Both the position numbers and the translations under genes were made by a program. Source: Candidatus Heimdallarchaeota archaeon (GTDB taxonomy: Archaea; Asgardarchaeota; Heimdallarchaeia; Heimdallarchaeales; Heimdallarchaeaceae). From it: DNA of 33,122 bases. The stretch covers positions 1 to 33,122 of the forward strand of contig BPTO01000017.1 of the NCBI GenBank assembly GCA_023705985.1. The letters run 5' to 3'. Numbering within the stretch: the first letter of the stretch is position 1; each line of letters starts with the position of its first letter. The notes beneath the pieces are model-generated. The model searched no databases, was not told the DNA's origin, and was given only the letters and a program-made list of their open reading frames with translations. Below are positions 5,770-25,147 of this stretch, piece after piece.

Positions 5770-6654
5770 ATGCGGAAGAAATTTAAAGTTCCATTCAATA
5801 GATATTATCAAGATATGAGCGATAATAAAGAAATCTTAATGTCAGCAAATGCTATTGCTAAATGTCTAACCGTTGATTCAATGGATCACACCAAGGAATC
5901 AGCTGGAGTACTCTTAGGGTACATTGACAAAGATACAGATACTCTAATTATTACTGACATGGATACTGGGAAGCAGAAACAGACCGCAACCTATGTAGTA
6001 ATAGAGGATGAAGCACTTGTACAGATAGTGAAGGATTTACAGGATAGGGAAAGAGAAGAGTATATTGTTGGATGGTGGCATACACATCCCGGATATGGTA
6101 CTTTTCTTTCTGGAACTGACAAGGGTACTCAACGTACTTATCAGAACTTATTCCCTGAGGCAGTTGCTATGGTTATTGATCCTTCTAAATACTATGGTTC
6201 TAAGAATCAAAAGGATCTTGATATAAGTTTTTTCAGATTAATTAATGATTATGATTATAAACCTGTACCCTTTGGTATTTATTATGATGATCATACAAGA
6301 CATCTATCCAATCTTGTAAGCGTTGAACTTAAATGGAAAATTCCCCAACTTGCTCCTGATGAAGTAAGAAAACTTCATTTGAGGTTAGATTCTCTACATT
6401 CATCTACATTACTTGATGAAGACAAACGTATTTTGCATGGTTTTGTTGATATTTTAAGTGCAACTGTAGGGAAAGAGATTGACTCCAAGGAAGAAAAGGA
6501 ATTGCTCAATTCTGTAGACTATAAACTAGCTGGAATAGCTGAAGATATTGATCGTATTTATGATAATGAGACATCCAATATTTATGCGATTTTGAATATC
6601 ATAGCTGTTGTAGTTTTCGTTATTTCATGGTTTTTAATTGCTCGTTTTTCCTAA
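5770..6654 (+). CDS. Tail-anchored JAMM/MPN metalloprotease (Rpn11-like)
   Basis: A JAB1/MPN/Mov34 zinc isopeptidase-like protein. Relatives in eukaryotes (Rpn11, Csn5, AMSH) remove ubiquitin or NEDD8; archaeal relatives cleave ubiquitin-like or sampylated proteins. The JAMM motif is intact: E43 in KESAGVLLG and the H-x-H-x7-S-x2-D signature as H104, H106, S114 and D117 in WWHTHPGYGTFLSGTD. The MPN core ends near residue 170. A middle region with charged helices (about 195-265) leads to one C-terminal membrane segment, about residues 270-291, ending in IARFS. The catalytic domain should therefore face the cytoplasm as a tail-anchored protein. It follows the kinase-fold gene by nine bases, with no clear Shine-Dalgarno sequence. 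The cleaved substrate is unknown; no ubiquitin or E1/E2 gene lies in the window. Confidence 0.85.
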   Translation: MRKKFKVPFNRYYQDMSDNKEILMSANAIAKCLTVDSMDHTKESAGVLLGYIDKDTDTLIITDMDTGKQKQTATYVVIEDEALVQIVKDLQDREREEYIVGWWHTHPGYGTFLSGTDKGTQRTYQNLFPEAVAMVIDPSKYYGSKNQKDLDISFFRLINDYDYKPVPFGIYYDDHTRHLSNLVSVELKWKIPQLAPDEVRKLHLRLDSLHSSTLLDEDKRILHGFVDILSATVGKEIDSKEEKELLNSVDYKLAGIAEDIDRIYDNETSNIYAILNIIAVVVFVISWFLIARFS

Positions 6655-12522: not shown

Positions 12523-12855
12523 TTATGTATCGGTCGTAGGAAATCTTTTTTTCATAATTTCAAACTCTTTTTTCCAAGCTTCCTCAATATTGATATCTAG
12601 GATCATGCATAATTGCAGGAAAAGATTGAAAACTTGAGCAAATTCTCTAGGCATTTGTGAATCATCGGGTTTTTTATGACCCATGCTTTCTGTTTTGTAA
12701 TCGGATAAAAATAAAAGGTGCTTACTTATTTCTCCAAGCTCTTCAATCAAGTGAATAAAAACCTCATTAGGTGAAAATCTAAGCCAATCTCTGTCTTCAA
12801 GAAACTCCCTTAATTCTGATTTTAATTCTTCTAAAGTCAAGCTTTCTTCTTTCAT
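12523..12855 (-). CDS. MazG-like NTP pyrophosphohydrolase-fold protein
   Basis: Small all-alpha protein (110 residues) of the MazG / phosphoribosyl-ATP pyrophosphatase / dUTPase-like superfamily, whose members hydrolyse nucleoside triphosphates to monophosphates. It shows the first metal motif in FIHLIEELGEISKHLL and the second helix in REFAQVFNLFLQLCMILDINIEEAWKKE. In the canonical ExxE...ExxD arrangement the last position should be Asp; here it is Gln (E-F-A-Q), so metal binding or activity may be altered. Its ATG overlaps the stop of the winged-helix/RING gene in an ATGA arrangement, so translation is coupled. Function linked to that protein is inferred from position only. Confidence 0.65.
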   Translation of the reverse strand: MKEESLTLEELKSELREFLEDRDWLRFSPNEVFIHLIEELGEISKHLLFLSDYKTESMGHKKPDDSQMPREFAQVFNLFLQLCMILDINIEEAWKKEFEIMKKRFPTTDT

Positions 12856-14978
12856 AGTGTTACCTTTTTAAGAGTTCTTTGAGAAATTCTGGATTTACAT
12901 AAAGGGCATTCTGATTTGATAGATATCCACTTCAGTAAGTGTTCTCTATGTGCTAAATTAGTGCAGCTAGGACATTCGTAAACTTCATCACCACTCTTGA
13001 TTAGACCCTGACACACTGTACATAGCGATGGCATTTGTCTGCAGTTGCTGCATGGGTTGTAAGGTGATTTTAATATATATCCACAATTTAGACATTTTGC
13101 TTTTTTAGCTGGTTCTATCAATTTCCCTATTCTTTCAAAATATGAAGTGGTTAATCTTCCTTTATAATATCCAAAAGCAGTTAACTGACATAAAAGCTTG
13201 AAAAGATCCTCTTTTTCCATCGAAAGTGAATTGGCTAAATTGCTTATCTTTACACGTTTTCTCCTTGATTTCTCAATTTCATTTACTAGACGAACATATA
13301 TTTTTCCTAGATCTTCTAGTTCTTTATTTGGCATGAAAGATTGGCTTGAAATTATGAAAGCGCTATTTCTCTTTATCTCTAATACTATTAGAGCTGATCC
13401 TACTAGCTCGTATAAAATATTCTTTACAGCTGTTATGGATTTATTCCATAGTTTCTGAATCATTTTTAGATTTATACTATCATTTGATATGATATAACCA
13501 AAAATCTCTATAAAGTGTGATTCAAAGTCCTCGAGTTGACTCAATGGTGGAAACAGAGGGATTTCATCAGGTATTAATCTATTTCCTACAATAGACCCTT
13601 TTATTAGTCCTTTTCCATAAAAACCGTACAATTTTTCTACTGCAAAATTTTTATCTATCCCCAAAGCAACAGAAATGTCTTTTACTGATATAATTGTTTT
13701 AGATATCACCATCCCTAAGACTATCTTCTCCCATCTTTCCAATGTTCCTTCTTGAGCTCTGCTGTATCGATTTACTTTGTTTATTTGAAGTCTATTGCCT
13801 TTCAATGTACAATCTACGAATCCGTCAAGCATCAGATTTATTACTGCTTCTGTGATTTCGTCTTCAGAACGACTCATGCTATTAGCTAATTTCTTAATTG
13901 CAATAGTGTTTTTTGTAGAAAGTAACCCAAATAATGCTTCATAATTAAAAAAACTGAGTGTAGCCATTTCTTCTATGGTTCGAACTGGTCTTAAATCTAG
14001 TTCCACAAGTGGAGTTACACTTACTTTATCAGTAAATGTAACCTGAAAAGTTCCCTTTGCTGTGAGTTCTGCTAGAATTCTGAGAATATTAATTGAATCT
14101 TTTTCTACATATTTGCTAATCGATTTTATTGTTGCTTTTTTTCTTAATAATAAATATCCAACTGTGTCTTTCTCTTCTTCATCTAAATCAGAAAGAGATA
14201 TTTTTCTTGGACTTATCATGAATTTTGATACTGTTACAATAACTTCACTGCTTAAAAAGCCAGTTTCGAGTTGAATTTTAGCTTCAAGTTTTCCATTTAA
14301 AAGTAATTTAGCTATGTTGTACAACACTTTTTCTCTTTTAATTCCTGTATCTTTTGCAACTTCAATAAGAATAGCTTTTCTTCGCATCATACATGTTCCT
14401 ATGATAAAAATATCCTCATCACTGATTTTTTCTTTTTTATCTAGTTGCTCTATTTTTATTGAGTTGATGTATCCTTTACTAATGTACCCTGCAAAATATC
14501 CATATTTTACAAGATCCATTAAATTATCTTTTATTTGTTCTTTAGAGATAATACAGATATTTGCTAGTTCACTGACTTTCACTTTTGGTAATGGTATTAA
14601 TATTCCTAAAATGATGATTTGTAGTTCTGTCAATTTTTTCTTAGATATTATTGGATATTTATAGAAATTACTTACAATAAATGTTCCTTTTTTGTAATGA
14701 CCTCTTAAAATTAGATCTTGAATCAAGAATTGTATGAATTGCTTAACTATTGCTTCTTTTAGTTTTAATTCAGTGGCAACCTTACGTATTGAAATTTCTC
14801 TATAGAGATATAGTTGAGTTAAAATATATGTTCTTTTAGCTTTAGCAACCTTAATCTCTTTATACTGTAAATTATATACATCATCACGTTCCATTGTCAG
14901 AGCAATCAACTCGAAAAGGTTAGAAAAATATTCTCTTCCGTACCTTATTAATATTCTCTTATTATTAACAACTGGCAA
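12852..14978 (-). CDS. Tandem winged-helix protein with C-terminal zinc ribbon and RING-like finger
   Basis: A 708-residue protein of repeated winged-helix units (about six or seven), each a helix-turn-helix pattern such as SIRKVATELKLKEAIVKQFI, VKVSELANICIISKEQIKDN and VKISNLANSLSMEKEDLFKL. The C-terminus holds two zinc modules. A ribbon has C629, C632, C643 and C646. A RING-like finger follows the pattern C653-x2-C656-x12-C669-x2-C672-x4-H677-x2-H680-x10-C691-x2-C694, including a W after the helix. RING fingers typically recruit ubiquitin E2s, and the Smc5/6 subunit Nse1 also joins winged helices to a RING-like domain, so an E3-like or scaffold role is possible but unproven. The start is a TTG at 14978 without a clear ribosome-binding site; an ATG at 14894 is an alternative. 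It is upstream of and coupled to the MazG-like gene. Confidence 0.7.
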   Translation of the reverse strand: MPVVNNKRILIRYGREYFSNLFELIALTMERDDVYNLQYKEIKVAKAKRTYILTQLYLYREISIRKVATELKLKEAIVKQFIQFLIQDLILRGHYKKGTFIVSNFYKYPIISKKKLTELQIIILGILIPLPKVKVSELANICIISKEQIKDNLMDLVKYGYFAGYISKGYINSIKIEQLDKKEKISDEDIFIIGTCMMRRKAILIEVAKDTGIKREKVLYNIAKLLLNGKLEAKIQLETGFLSSEVIVTVSKFMISPRKISLSDLDEEEKDTVGYLLLRKKATIKSISKYVEKDSINILRILAELTAKGTFQVTFTDKVSVTPLVELDLRPVRTIEEMATLSFFNYEALFGLLSTKNTIAIKKLANSMSRSEDEITEAVINLMLDGFVDCTLKGNRLQINKVNRYSRAQEGTLERWEKIVLGMVISKTIISVKDISVALGIDKNFAVEKLYGFYGKGLIKGSIVGNRLIPDEIPLFPPLSQLEDFESHFIEIFGYIISNDSINLKMIQKLWNKSITAVKNILYELVGSALIVLEIKRNSAFIISSQSFMPNKELEDLGKIYVRLVNEIEKSRRKRVKISNLANSLSMEKEDLFKLLCQLTAFGYYKGRLTTSYFERIGKLIEPAKKAKCLNCGYILKSPYNPCSNCRQMPSLCTVCQGLIKSGDEVYECPSCTNLAHREHLLKWISIKSECPLCKSRISQRTLKKVTL

Positions 14979-15007: not shown

Positions 15008-16303
15008 TTAGACTCTTTCAAGGTATTTTTTGTTTTCCCACTCTTTTACAGCTTCAAACCCTTTACTTTTGATATCTAAGTACTCTTTGTATTCTCGGCG
15101 TTTAACATCAAGATAAATGTCAACTATCTCTTTTCCAAGTACTTCTTGAATAAATTGACTTTTTTCCATGAAATCAAGCGCTTCATTAAGATCTGAAGGT
15201 AATTGTGTTATACCCATTTCTTTCCTTTCTTCAGAAGTTAGTTTCTCAACATTCTTTGTCGTGGGAGGTATTGGTTCTATTTTTCTTCTAATACCATCTA
15301 ATCCAGCTGCTAATAGTAACGCTTTTGCAAAATATATATTTGTTGCACCATCTGCTGCTCTATATTCAATCCTAGCTTTTTTCTCATAACCAGGAACGCG
15401 AATTAAAGCTGTCCTATTGGCTACTCCCCAAGATTTAAACACAGGGGCTTCATGACCTGGAACGAGTCTTTTATAGGAGTTTGTTGTAGGATTAAAGAAA
15501 GCTGTCATCGCATCAACATGCTCTAAGATTCCACCTACAAAATATCTTAAAGAATCACTTATACCTTTCTCTTCATCTGAAAAAATGTTAACTCCATCTC
15601 TTGTCAAAAACTGATGTATATGTAAACCATTACCTGCTTGATCATGGAAGGGTTTTGGCATAAATGTTCCAATTAATCCCTCAAGCACTGATTCAGTTTT
15701 AATTATCATTTTAGAAGTTTGAGAATTATCTGCTTGAATGAGTGCATCATCCATACCTAATTCAATTTCCTGTTGTCCTAAACCACATTCATGGTGAATA
15801 GTTTTCATTGAAATATCCATATCCCTCATATCGTCTGCAATTGTTCTTCTAAGAAGTGCAAGACTGTCAAAAGGTAAAGTGTCCATATACACACCATCAT
15901 CTGCGGGGGTGTAATCATCAAGAACAAAGAACCATTCAAGTTCTGGTCTTGTTTTGTATTCAAAACCCATTGCTTTAGCACTTTGTATTCCTTTTTTCAG
16001 GATACTTCGGGGGTCTGTAGGATGTGGAAATCCATCATTTGTATGAATATCACAGATGAATCTTCCTACTCTTAGATCCCAAGGTAGTACAGCAAATGTA
16101 TCTAGATCTGGTACTACTCTCATATCACTTTGCTCAGTTTTTAGAAATCCTAGAGAAGAGCCATCAACTCCTGATCCTTCATGCATTTCCTCCCAAATAT
16201 CTGCAGGGAACTCAACTGATTTTAATTCACCAAAAAGAGTAGTGAAATGAAATTGAATATAATCAACCTCTTTTTCTTTAAATATCGCCTTGAAATCCTT
16301 CAT
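15008..16303 (-). CDS. glnA: Glutamine synthetase, type I
   Basis: Makes glutamine from glutamate, ammonia and ATP in the cytoplasm; a dodecamer in this family. Landmarks are GSGVDGSSLGF near the N-terminus, KTRPELEWFF and HHECGLGQQEIEL (metal and glutamate site), GNGLHIHQFL, NPTTNSYKRLVPGHEAP (ATP/glutamate flap region) and RIEYRAADGATNIY. The length of 431 residues and the region after PPTTKN, where the adenylylation Tyr of the beta class is missing (KNVEKLTSEE), fit the alpha class, so control by adenylylation is unlikely. The ATG at 16303 is preceded by GTGA about nine bases away. It is divergent from the AIR-synthase-like gene and followed after 29 bases by the winged-helix/RING gene. 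Confidence 0.95.
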   Translation of the reverse strand: MKDFKAIFKEKEVDYIQFHFTTLFGELKSVEFPADIWEEMHEGSGVDGSSLGFLKTEQSDMRVVPDLDTFAVLPWDLRVGRFICDIHTNDGFPHPTDPRSILKKGIQSAKAMGFEYKTRPELEWFFVLDDYTPADDGVYMDTLPFDSLALLRRTIADDMRDMDISMKTIHHECGLGQQEIELGMDDALIQADNSQTSKMIIKTESVLEGLIGTFMPKPFHDQAGNGLHIHQFLTRDGVNIFSDEEKGISDSLRYFVGGILEHVDAMTAFFNPTTNSYKRLVPGHEAPVFKSWGVANRTALIRVPGYEKKARIEYRAADGATNIYFAKALLLAAGLDGIRRKIEPIPPTTKNVEKLTSEERKEMGITQLPSDLNEALDFMEKSQFIQEVLGKEIVDIYLDVKRREYKEYLDIKSKGFEAVKEWENKKYLERV

Positions 16304-23484: not shown

Positions 23485-23694
23485 GGGTAGTGGTAATAAT
23501 TTTGAGGACTCTTCCCAACCCAAGAACGTGGATAGTAGCGTAGCTTAAAGCAGTAGCATAGGGAGTCTCAAGCTCTGGGATTACACCTCCAACACACAGT
23601 GTTAGCGGAGGTGAGGGGGTTCATCTCCTCCCCGGGACTCATTACTGGAGACAGTGTTATTGAGAACCTTAGGTTCTCACTCCAGCTCCGGGGG
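23462..23694 (-). ncRNA. Probable TnpB guide RNA (omega RNA / reRNA) region
   Basis: The 3' non-coding end of a TnpB element normally encodes the guide RNA scaffold. This 200-base segment is GC-rich and strongly folded. One hairpin is at 23584-23613 (CACCTCC with GGAGGTG, and an inner AACAC / GTGTT). A second is at 23661-23679 (TGAGAACC-tta-GGTTCTCA), extended by CTGGAG at 23645-23650 with CTCCAG at 23680-23685 and CCCCGG at 23630-23635 with CCGGGG at 23688-23693. The region overlaps the tnpB stop, as in known omega RNAs. The guide would be the flanking sequence past 23462, beginning AATAACTCATAGTG on the minus strand. Exact RNA ends cannot be read. Confidence 0.6.
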
Positions 23695-25147
23695 TAAGCA
23701 GATGACTCTGCTTTGTCTGTAGCCATTGGCTCAAGACAGGGAAGACACGAAAAGAACTGAGTGGAAAAAACTTTCCACTAACTTGATCTTTTATTGAAGT
23801 GTATTTTGGTTGCAGAACGTATTTGATCAATCTTTTTGCTATATTCTTCGCTCCATTCAAATCTGCATTAAGGTTATACCCACAAGTATGGCAGATGAAT
23901 GTTGGTTGGTTAGGACGGGTAGTGTGATAGGATCCACAACGAGAACAACAAGAAGATGTCCACGATTCACCGATGCTAAGGATTCTATATTCTTCCCATC
24001 CGTGTAAAGAGAGCTTGAATTTGAGCAATTCTGTCACCCTCCTGTAGTTCCATTTGTGGATACTTTTACGGGAGTGGGGATGGAGATTACCTCTATAGTG
24101 ACTCTTACGGATATGAATAGGAAAGCCTACCACCACATAGAGATCATATCTCTTTCCAACAGAGAGTATATACTTGACTAACTTGTTGGTATAGGTGTGG
24201 TCGGTTAGTTTATGTTCCGTTCTTTGTCTCTTTCTGAGCGATTTAAGTTGGTGGAAAAGATCGTTTCTCTTGTTTACACTCAAACCAGTTTTAGCTAAAA
24301 TTTTCTGCAGTTTAGCGATTTTTCTTTCTTTTTTCTTTTGTAATTTTTTTCGTGTCTTATCAGACCAGAATCTGATCTCATGACGATTGATGGCTCCTTT
24401 CGGAGTTAAGAGTGCACTTACTGCACGTTTGTTGATTCCTAGATCTATCCCCAGCACAGCTGGAGGACGAGAGGAAAAGTACTTATCTGGTACATGAAGC
24501 AAGATGAAATGTACCCACCATTCCTTCTTCTTGGGATAGTAGAGCACTTCGAGCGCCTGTATTTTTCCCTGGTGGAGGCTATGTTCATGATAAGGGGAAC
24601 AGGCTAAAGGTAACCACAATTTCTCGTGTTTGTGAGTTCTGTTCTTCTTTGTATCGAGGGAGTCTCTTATCCCTACCCACCATCGGGCAATAGAGTTGGA
24701 AGGAGAACAAGTAAGAATAAACCTTTTACTATGGGCTAGCTGTGTACGAGGGATTTTTTTTAGTGGAGGATCTTTAACAGGAGCTGAATTATTTGCTTGT
24801 TGACTGTGGTAGATGGCTACAGCATTGTCTCTACATTCCTGCAATTCATTCTGGGAGCAGCGGGGAAAGCTCTTTTTCAAATCATGTCTAACTGTAGGTC
24901 GTTTGGGTAGTTTACTCTTCTTATATGTGATAAGCGTAAGATGGTCTAGTTTTGCTTTACTCACCTTCTTCTTACCCTTCTTTTTTGTTACTATTTGCTC
25001 TTCATTGTGATATGTTACTTTGAGGTACTGCTTGATTATTCTTGTATCTCTCCCCGTAATTTGCTCTAGTCTTCTTCTCTTCCGTGTTGTGATTACCTCT
25101 GCTTTAATTCTCACTTTTACAGTCGTTCTCACCCCACTTCTCGTCAT
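23669..25147 (-). CDS. tnpB: TnpB RNA-guided nuclease with rearranged RuvC site
   Basis: TnpB of IS605/IS1341 elements, an RNA-guided DNA endonuclease and the ancestor of Cas12. 492 residues, longer than the usual 350-450. The N-terminus is Lys/Arg-rich (about 1-90), followed by a REC-like middle and the RuvC core: VLGIDLGINKRAV (D235), a long basic helix KKLQKKKERKIAKLQK, the RuvC-II strand DLYVVVGFPIHI, a zinc finger C401-x2-C404 ... C419-x2-C422, and NADLNGAKNI (D429). The usual RuvC-II Glu is Gly (G341). A Glu (E394) stands in SIGESWTSSC just before the zinc finger, the alternative position seen in Fanzor and related TnpBs. So it may be active, not dead. The C-terminal tail overlaps the guide-RNA scaffold. 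Confidence 0.9.
   Translation of the reverse strand: MTRSGVRTTVKVRIKAEVITTRKRRRLEQITGRDTRIIKQYLKVTYHNEEQIVTKKKGKKKVSKAKLDHLTLITYKKSKLPKRPTVRHDLKKSFPRCSQNELQECRDNAVAIYHSQQANNSAPVKDPPLKKIPRTQLAHSKRFILTCSPSNSIARWWVGIRDSLDTKKNRTHKHEKLWLPLACSPYHEHSLHQGKIQALEVLYYPKKKEWWVHFILLHVPDKYFSSRPPAVLGIDLGINKRAVSALLTPKGAINRHEIRFWSDKTRKKLQKKKERKIAKLQKILAKTGLSVNKRNDLFHQLKSLRKRQRTEHKLTDHTYTNKLVKYILSVGKRYDLYVVVGFPIHIRKSHYRGNLHPHSRKSIHKWNYRRVTELLKFKLSLHGWEEYRILSIGESWTSSCCSRCGSYHTTRPNQPTFICHTCGYNLNADLNGAKNIAKRLIKYVLQPKYTSIKDQVSGKFFPLSSFRVFPVLSQWLQTKQSHLLTPGAGVRT

Follow-up and report, generated by a model that had tools for sequence, protein, structure and literature searches.

What protein does the long reading frame flanked by glnA and a short MazG-like gene encode, and what could its winged helices and C-terminal zinc finger serve for? 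The window, that is, the whole stretch of 33,122 nucleotides that was analysed, is one entire contig; the Asgard genome to which it belongs has 3.6 Mb and is about 90% complete. The Asgard origin suggested in the preliminary description was borne out, the nearest named relatives being Heimdallarchaeota, among them Candidatus Heimdallarchaeum endolithica with its complete chromosome.

The open reading frame spans 12852-14978 on the (-) strand, and all of it had at first been taken as the gene. The frame and its stop at 12852 stand, but the TTG at 14978 is probably not the start, a CTG being conserved instead. Most relatives have a frame that is closed 5' of the conserved start codon; in six of them a stop lies just two codons 5' of it, so that translation must begin at, or very close to, this codon. 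In the family (loci L006-L025) it is CTG in almost every genome and TTG in one, and several relatives have a GGGGT or GGTG-like stretch 5' of it. In the source genome, the CTG at 14900 is followed two codons on by an ATG (14894), the alternative start. The gene, encoding eight winged helices, a zinc ribbon and a RING finger, is placed at 12852..14900 (-), for a product of about 682 aa; residues are counted from CTG 14900. Stops inside the matches to relatives raised the possibility of an interrupted gene, which was rejected, as these stops lie upstream of the CTG. With such a start codon, standard gene callers would misplace or truncate the gene. Between glnA and the start, an AT-rich block conserved in the family (14943..14967, (-)) reads AATAAGGTAACTTTAATAAGTCATG in relatives; from sequence comparison only, it is a probable TATA-type promoter element.

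The protein ends with two zinc motifs. The zinc ribbon (13041..13094, (-)) has the pattern C-x2-C-x10-C-x2-C, with C603, C606, C617 and C620 as ligands. The RING finger follows (12894..13022, (-)), with the pattern C-x2-C-x12-C-x2-C-x4-H-x2-H-x10-C-x2-C; its ligands, assigned from conservation and the model, are C627, C630, C643, C646, H651, H654, C665 and C668, and it also carries V629, W658 and P666 at E2-contact positions, and K669 as linchpin. In an alignment of 19 orthologs, reaching down to 21% identity, all twelve zinc ligands, W658 and P666 are invariant, position 629 is V or I, and position 669 is K or R, in 19/19 sequences. The finger, the ribbon and the tryptophan noted at the outset are thus real, and the conservation of the finger, judged from this alignment, is far beyond chance.

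The zf-RING_2 family, with a cut-off of 27.3 bits, fell short in the whole-protein hmmscan (24.4 bits) and passed in a six-frame search (30.5 bits). Profile matches confined to the RING were to RNF165/ARK2C and Arkadia at 3e-7 and, with a broader tail profile, to RNF4 at 4e-9. A second model, of the tail only, had a pLDDT of 83. In Foldseek, the predicted RING superimposed on that of RNF165 with a TM-score of 0.85 and an RMSD of 1.1 Å, and Rad18 RINGs were also matched. The predicted fold is therefore that of a cross-brace RING, as had been proposed. A plain zinc ribbon was rejected, since the matches, by sequence and by fold, are to RINGs.

When ribbon and RING were taken together, another set of relatives appeared: WDR19/IFT144 (8e-8), WDR59 (5e-6), MIOS and WDR24 (both about 1e-5). 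In the HMMER alignment, WDR59, MIOS and the archaeal tail are identical in their ribbon-RING layout and in ligand order, C,C,H,H with a Trp after it. The histidines at ligands 5 and 6, pointed out earlier as a departure from the common order, are present but not unique; they are of the GATOR2/SEA type. Likewise, in structural comparisons of the tail by itself, IFT-A and GATOR2 chains matched best, and over its full length it is nearest to GATOR2, SEA and IFT-A tails. In the SEA complex, the RINGs play a structural role: by forming heterodimers, they keep the complex assembled (PMC9646525). The archaeal tail could similarly be a dimerisation module in a scaffold subunit devoid of ligase activity, all the more as each genome has several proteins with such a tail, which could pair mutually. 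This is the main rival to a ligase, and we give it a real, though clearly minor, chance of being correct. A purely structural RING, however, need not keep V/I, W, P and K/R at the four positions in 19/19 orthologs, and it is because the whole E2-contact set is retained that a ligase is preferred. The equivalent residues of the Caldiarchaeum srfp protein, I30, W58 and R69, matter for its E3 activity (PMC5654768). We consider it rather probable that Heimdall-group Asgard archaea have, in this protein, a RING ubiquitin ligase of the scaffold type. E2 binding, ligase activity and a substrate are what we infer for it.

For the part preceding the tail, we turned to an AlphaFold2 model of the window protein, obtained in a run with 23 relatives. 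The model (pLDDT 85, pTM 0.68) has eight winged helices followed by the zinc module, rather than the six or seven first counted. All are encoded on the (-) strand: winged helix 1 at 14664..14843 (AlphaFold2 residues 20-79), 2 at 14451..14627 (92-150), 3 at 14220..14420 (161-227), 4 at 14010..14180 (241-297), 5 at 13773..13943 (320-376), 6 at 13569..13736 (389-444), 7 at 13344..13520 (461-519) and 8, which adjoins the zinc module, at 13131..13304 (533-590). The second has a weak sequence-profile match to the winged helix of DDRGK1/UFBP1 (E 0.016). Apart from the C-terminal zf-RING_2, the Pfam matches are weak ones to several winged-helix families, and one to PCI that covers part of a single winged helix. 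A PCI-type protein of the proteasome lid or COP9 was rejected, as this match is limited to the core of winged helix 1 and is explained by the tandem winged helices.

With the full model as query, the top Foldseek match was TFIIIC tauB (2.1e-6), next to UFL1 on the 60S ribosome (3.9e-6 over 631 columns); a UFL1-DDRGK1 chimera, SelB and RPC62 were also found. By structure prediction, the chain appears closest to UFL1, TFIIIC and SelB, with TM-scores so low (0.1) that the UFL1 match may reflect just a common chain of winged helices. These matches could also point to a nucleic-acid-binding protein of the TFIIIC, RPC62 or SelB kind, which would work in transcription or on RNA and carry the RING as an accessory. 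Net charge is positive in 19/19 orthologs (+5 to +37), and a distant homolog, L130, matches TFIIE-alpha and RPC82 domains. However, the recognition helices are not basic, with mean charges from -1.9 to +1.4, and chains of winged helices match one another irrespective of function. A nucleic-acid binder is thus improbable in our opinion, and direct DNA binding by the array was demoted to a low rival on account of the recognition helices.

Nse1, the Smc5/6 subunit brought up in the preliminary description, resembles the archaeal protein in outline, by the presence of winged helices and of a RING-like finger after them, and the tail weakly matches the MAGE-G1/NSE1 complex (Foldseek E 2e-3). Nse1 has two winged helices, a C4HC3 finger and MAGE/Nse4 partners. 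Here there are eight winged helices, and ligand 6 is a histidine in 19/19 orthologs, not a cysteine. No Nse1 Pfam family hits the protein, and the best scores in the genome for the Nse1 finger (PF08746) and MAGE (PF01454) are 13.8 and 12.2 bits, below the cut-offs. The resemblance did not hold up, and we find an Nse1-like subunit of a Smc5/6-type complex hardly credible.

How widespread is the protein, and does its neighbourhood inform on its role? It is present in 22/22 other genomes of the Heimdallarchaeaceae-like family, being divided between contigs or truncated by a contig end in two of them, and in most genomes of the order, at 21-28% identity. Outside the class, one genome (G066) has a full-length homolog (5.7e-95) and another (G063) a shorter one. 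Elsewhere in the class and phylum, the observed matches were restricted to the tail, on other proteins. Upstream, glnA (15008..16303, (-), identified with Pfam) is a neighbour in nearly every family locus covering that side. Downstream, the MazG-like gene (12523..12855, (-), 110 aa, with an EELGE motif and no usable Pfam hit) is the usual neighbour in the family, and its start overlaps the stop of the RING gene by 4 bases. An ABC ATPase and two membrane proteins complete the surroundings. Two further families of the phylum have pdxS and pdxT next to their RING gene or close to it (L126 4355-8799, L129 2903-7540). Glutamine synthetase and PdxT both handle glutamine, and these neighbours are suggestive of a possible glutamine link, no more. 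Roadblock/longin-like genes occur near the RING genes that neighbour pdxS/pdxT or glnA. Elsewhere in the window, a Cas12f1/TnpB-type transposon nuclease is found at 23669-25147.

The window also encodes a JAMM protease (5770-6654), to which the RING protein had been tentatively connected; the HxHP..S..D motif of the protease is intact, and its C-terminus probably forms a membrane helix. The two genes do share a neighbourhood, about 6 kb apart, but seven genes on mixed strands separate them. A common operon was rejected: although synteny of the block is kept in the family, the strands differ, and no JAMM gene was found within the retrieved flank of the Heimdallarchaeum locus L052. This protease aside, no neighbour of the RING gene belongs to the ubiquitin pathway, and the gene shares no operon with ubiquitin, E1 or E2, which speaks against a ligase.

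The ubiquitin-like system expected for the source genome was found elsewhere in it, with ubiquitin (2.4e-12), a ThiF-type E1 (4.5e-63), an E2 (8e-34) and JAMM proteases. The genome's own E1 is at L089 8088-9089 and its E2 at L074 5102-5569. Neither of the two findings named at the outset as refutations, a plain-ribbon fold and a genome lacking such a pathway, was thus obtained. Ubiquitin, ending in GGY, has as neighbours an E1, a UEV-like protein and genes resembling those of ESCRT components, judging from their sequences and from Hatano et al. (PMC9192718). Both RING-binding loops are retained in the canonical E2, which lies on contig C130 (YPFKPPK in loop 4, W-T-P-A in loop 7). More broadly, E2 genes were detected in 54/54 genomes searched, and ubiquitin in 27/28. 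A second ubiquitin-like cassette was seen in the sister genus g2 (L090 4505-10632, G012:C179), with a Ubl of 119 aa ending in STAG, an E1, a JAMM protease and an E2 of 176 aa.

A UFM1-like operon is also present in the source genome (L148 6809-10871, G000:C7) and in Ca. Heimdallarchaeum endolithica (L149 6554-10630, G003). It comprises a UBA5-like E1, matching PDB UBA5 at 1e-48, a JAMM protease, a UFM1-like protein of 92 residues ending in ..INRGVVG (Pfam Ufm1 0.044, below cut-off), a UFC1-like E2 that passes the Pfam cut-off, and an EAP30/Vps22-like protein. UFC1 matches occur in 16/228 Asgard genomes. In a 2023 study, UFM1 and UFC1 were confined to eukaryotes, and UFL1 and DDRGK1 were traced to Asgard archaea (PMC10183829). 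Could the RING protein be the E3 of this system, equivalent to UFL1/UFBP1? Its winged helices match DDRGK1 and UFL1, as described above, and L130 passes the cut-off of the Pfam family E3_UFM1_ligase (PF09743), which other proteins also hit; the RING protein itself does not match it. UFC1-like genes, however, are found in just 2/23 close genomes, the RING protein being in nearly all of them. Moreover, UFL1 is a scaffold-type E3 without a known E3 domain (PMC9627666), and canonical E2s are what RINGs pair with. Dedication to the UFM1-like system is therefore very improbable. Small proteins of about 265 aa, matching the UFL1 family near its cut-off and without a RING, were noted in the Heimdallarchaeaceae-like family as well (L075 199-1008, G000:C132; L058-L063; L065).

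In the scaffold ligase that we favour, an E2 charged with ubiquitin would be primed, and kept reactive, by the zinc-ribbon/RING tail. The eight winged helices would form a rod that attaches to the substrate or to a large complex, as the UFL1/UFBP1 rod does to the 60S ribosome, and that positions the substrate.

The same ribbon-RING tail ends many other Asgard proteins, including HEAT-like and multi-pass membrane proteins. Among them are large receptors with extracellular domains (CARDB-like in some), a membrane helix and the tail (L077 3888-6215, L132 1218-3662, L133 2976-5426, L131 841-3903), which resemble, in outline, eukaryotic membrane-anchored RING ligases. A RING without the ribbon ends a 999 aa protein composed of a Dna2-like nuclease and an SF1 helicase (L080 3971-6970, G000:C2).

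Taken one by one, RING E3s of archaea, the ubiquitin of Asgard archaea and UFL1-like proteins are already known. The archaeal RING E3 that was tested experimentally, Caldiarchaeum srfp, is a small RING protein (PMC5654768). Our literature search, which had bioRxiv and many subscription journals outside its scope, retrieved no paper on the present architecture or on the spread of the ribbon-RING tail. A large, conserved, multi-domain ligase candidate with a tail of the GATOR2/IFT-A kind makes the complexity already attained by the Asgard ubiquitin system testable, as well as the origin of the RING tails of coat-like complexes and of the winged-helix rod of the UFM1 ligase. A speculative and rather unlikely extension is that the protein represents an ancestral kind of scaffold E3, which unites a UFL1-like winged-helix rod and a GATOR2/IFT-A-like zinc-ribbon/RING tail in one chain. 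If so, this tail would have been the basis of many ligases in Asgard archaea, with receptor, helicase and winged-helix versions; eukaryotic coat complexes would have inherited the tail as a structural joint, and the UFM1 ligase would have kept the rod without the RING.

Among known E3s, UFL1/UFBP1 is the best full-length structural match, and shares with the archaeal protein a rod of tandem winged helices. UFL1-UFBP1 has seven of them, most contacting the ribosome (PMC10937380). Formed by two chains and devoid of a RING, it acts together with UFC1, whereas the archaeal protein is a single chain of eight winged helices with a RING tail, present also in genomes where UFC1 was not detected. By its end, the protein is akin to WDR59, WDR24 and MIOS of GATOR2/SEA, and to WDR19/IFT144 of IFT-A, which all terminate with a zinc ribbon and a RING. 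These are beta-propeller/alpha-solenoid coat proteins; the archaeal protein has winged helices in their place, and only these precede the tail in the AlphaFold2 model, in which neither a beta-propeller nor an alpha-solenoid is seen. Compared with the SEA RINGs, which are structural dimers, the archaeal RING keeps the full E2-contact set, with CP-x-C-[KR].

Two sets of RING E3s complete the comparison. Like the archaeal finger, Caldiarchaeum srfp has I/V, W and R/K in its RING (PMC5654768), but it is a small stand-alone RING encoded in a ubiquitin operon, unlike the large multi-domain protein described here. The RING-H2 ligases RNF165/ARK2C, Arkadia and RNF24, together with RNF4, are the best matches to the RING alone, by sequence and by structure; they differ in that ligand 4 is Cys and ligand 6 His in the archaeal finger, and in being devoid of winged helices. 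Most likely, then, the archaeal protein is a ubiquitin ligase of unusual build, combining traits found in eukaryotes in the UFM1 ligase on the one hand and in the GATOR2/IFT-A coat complexes on the other.
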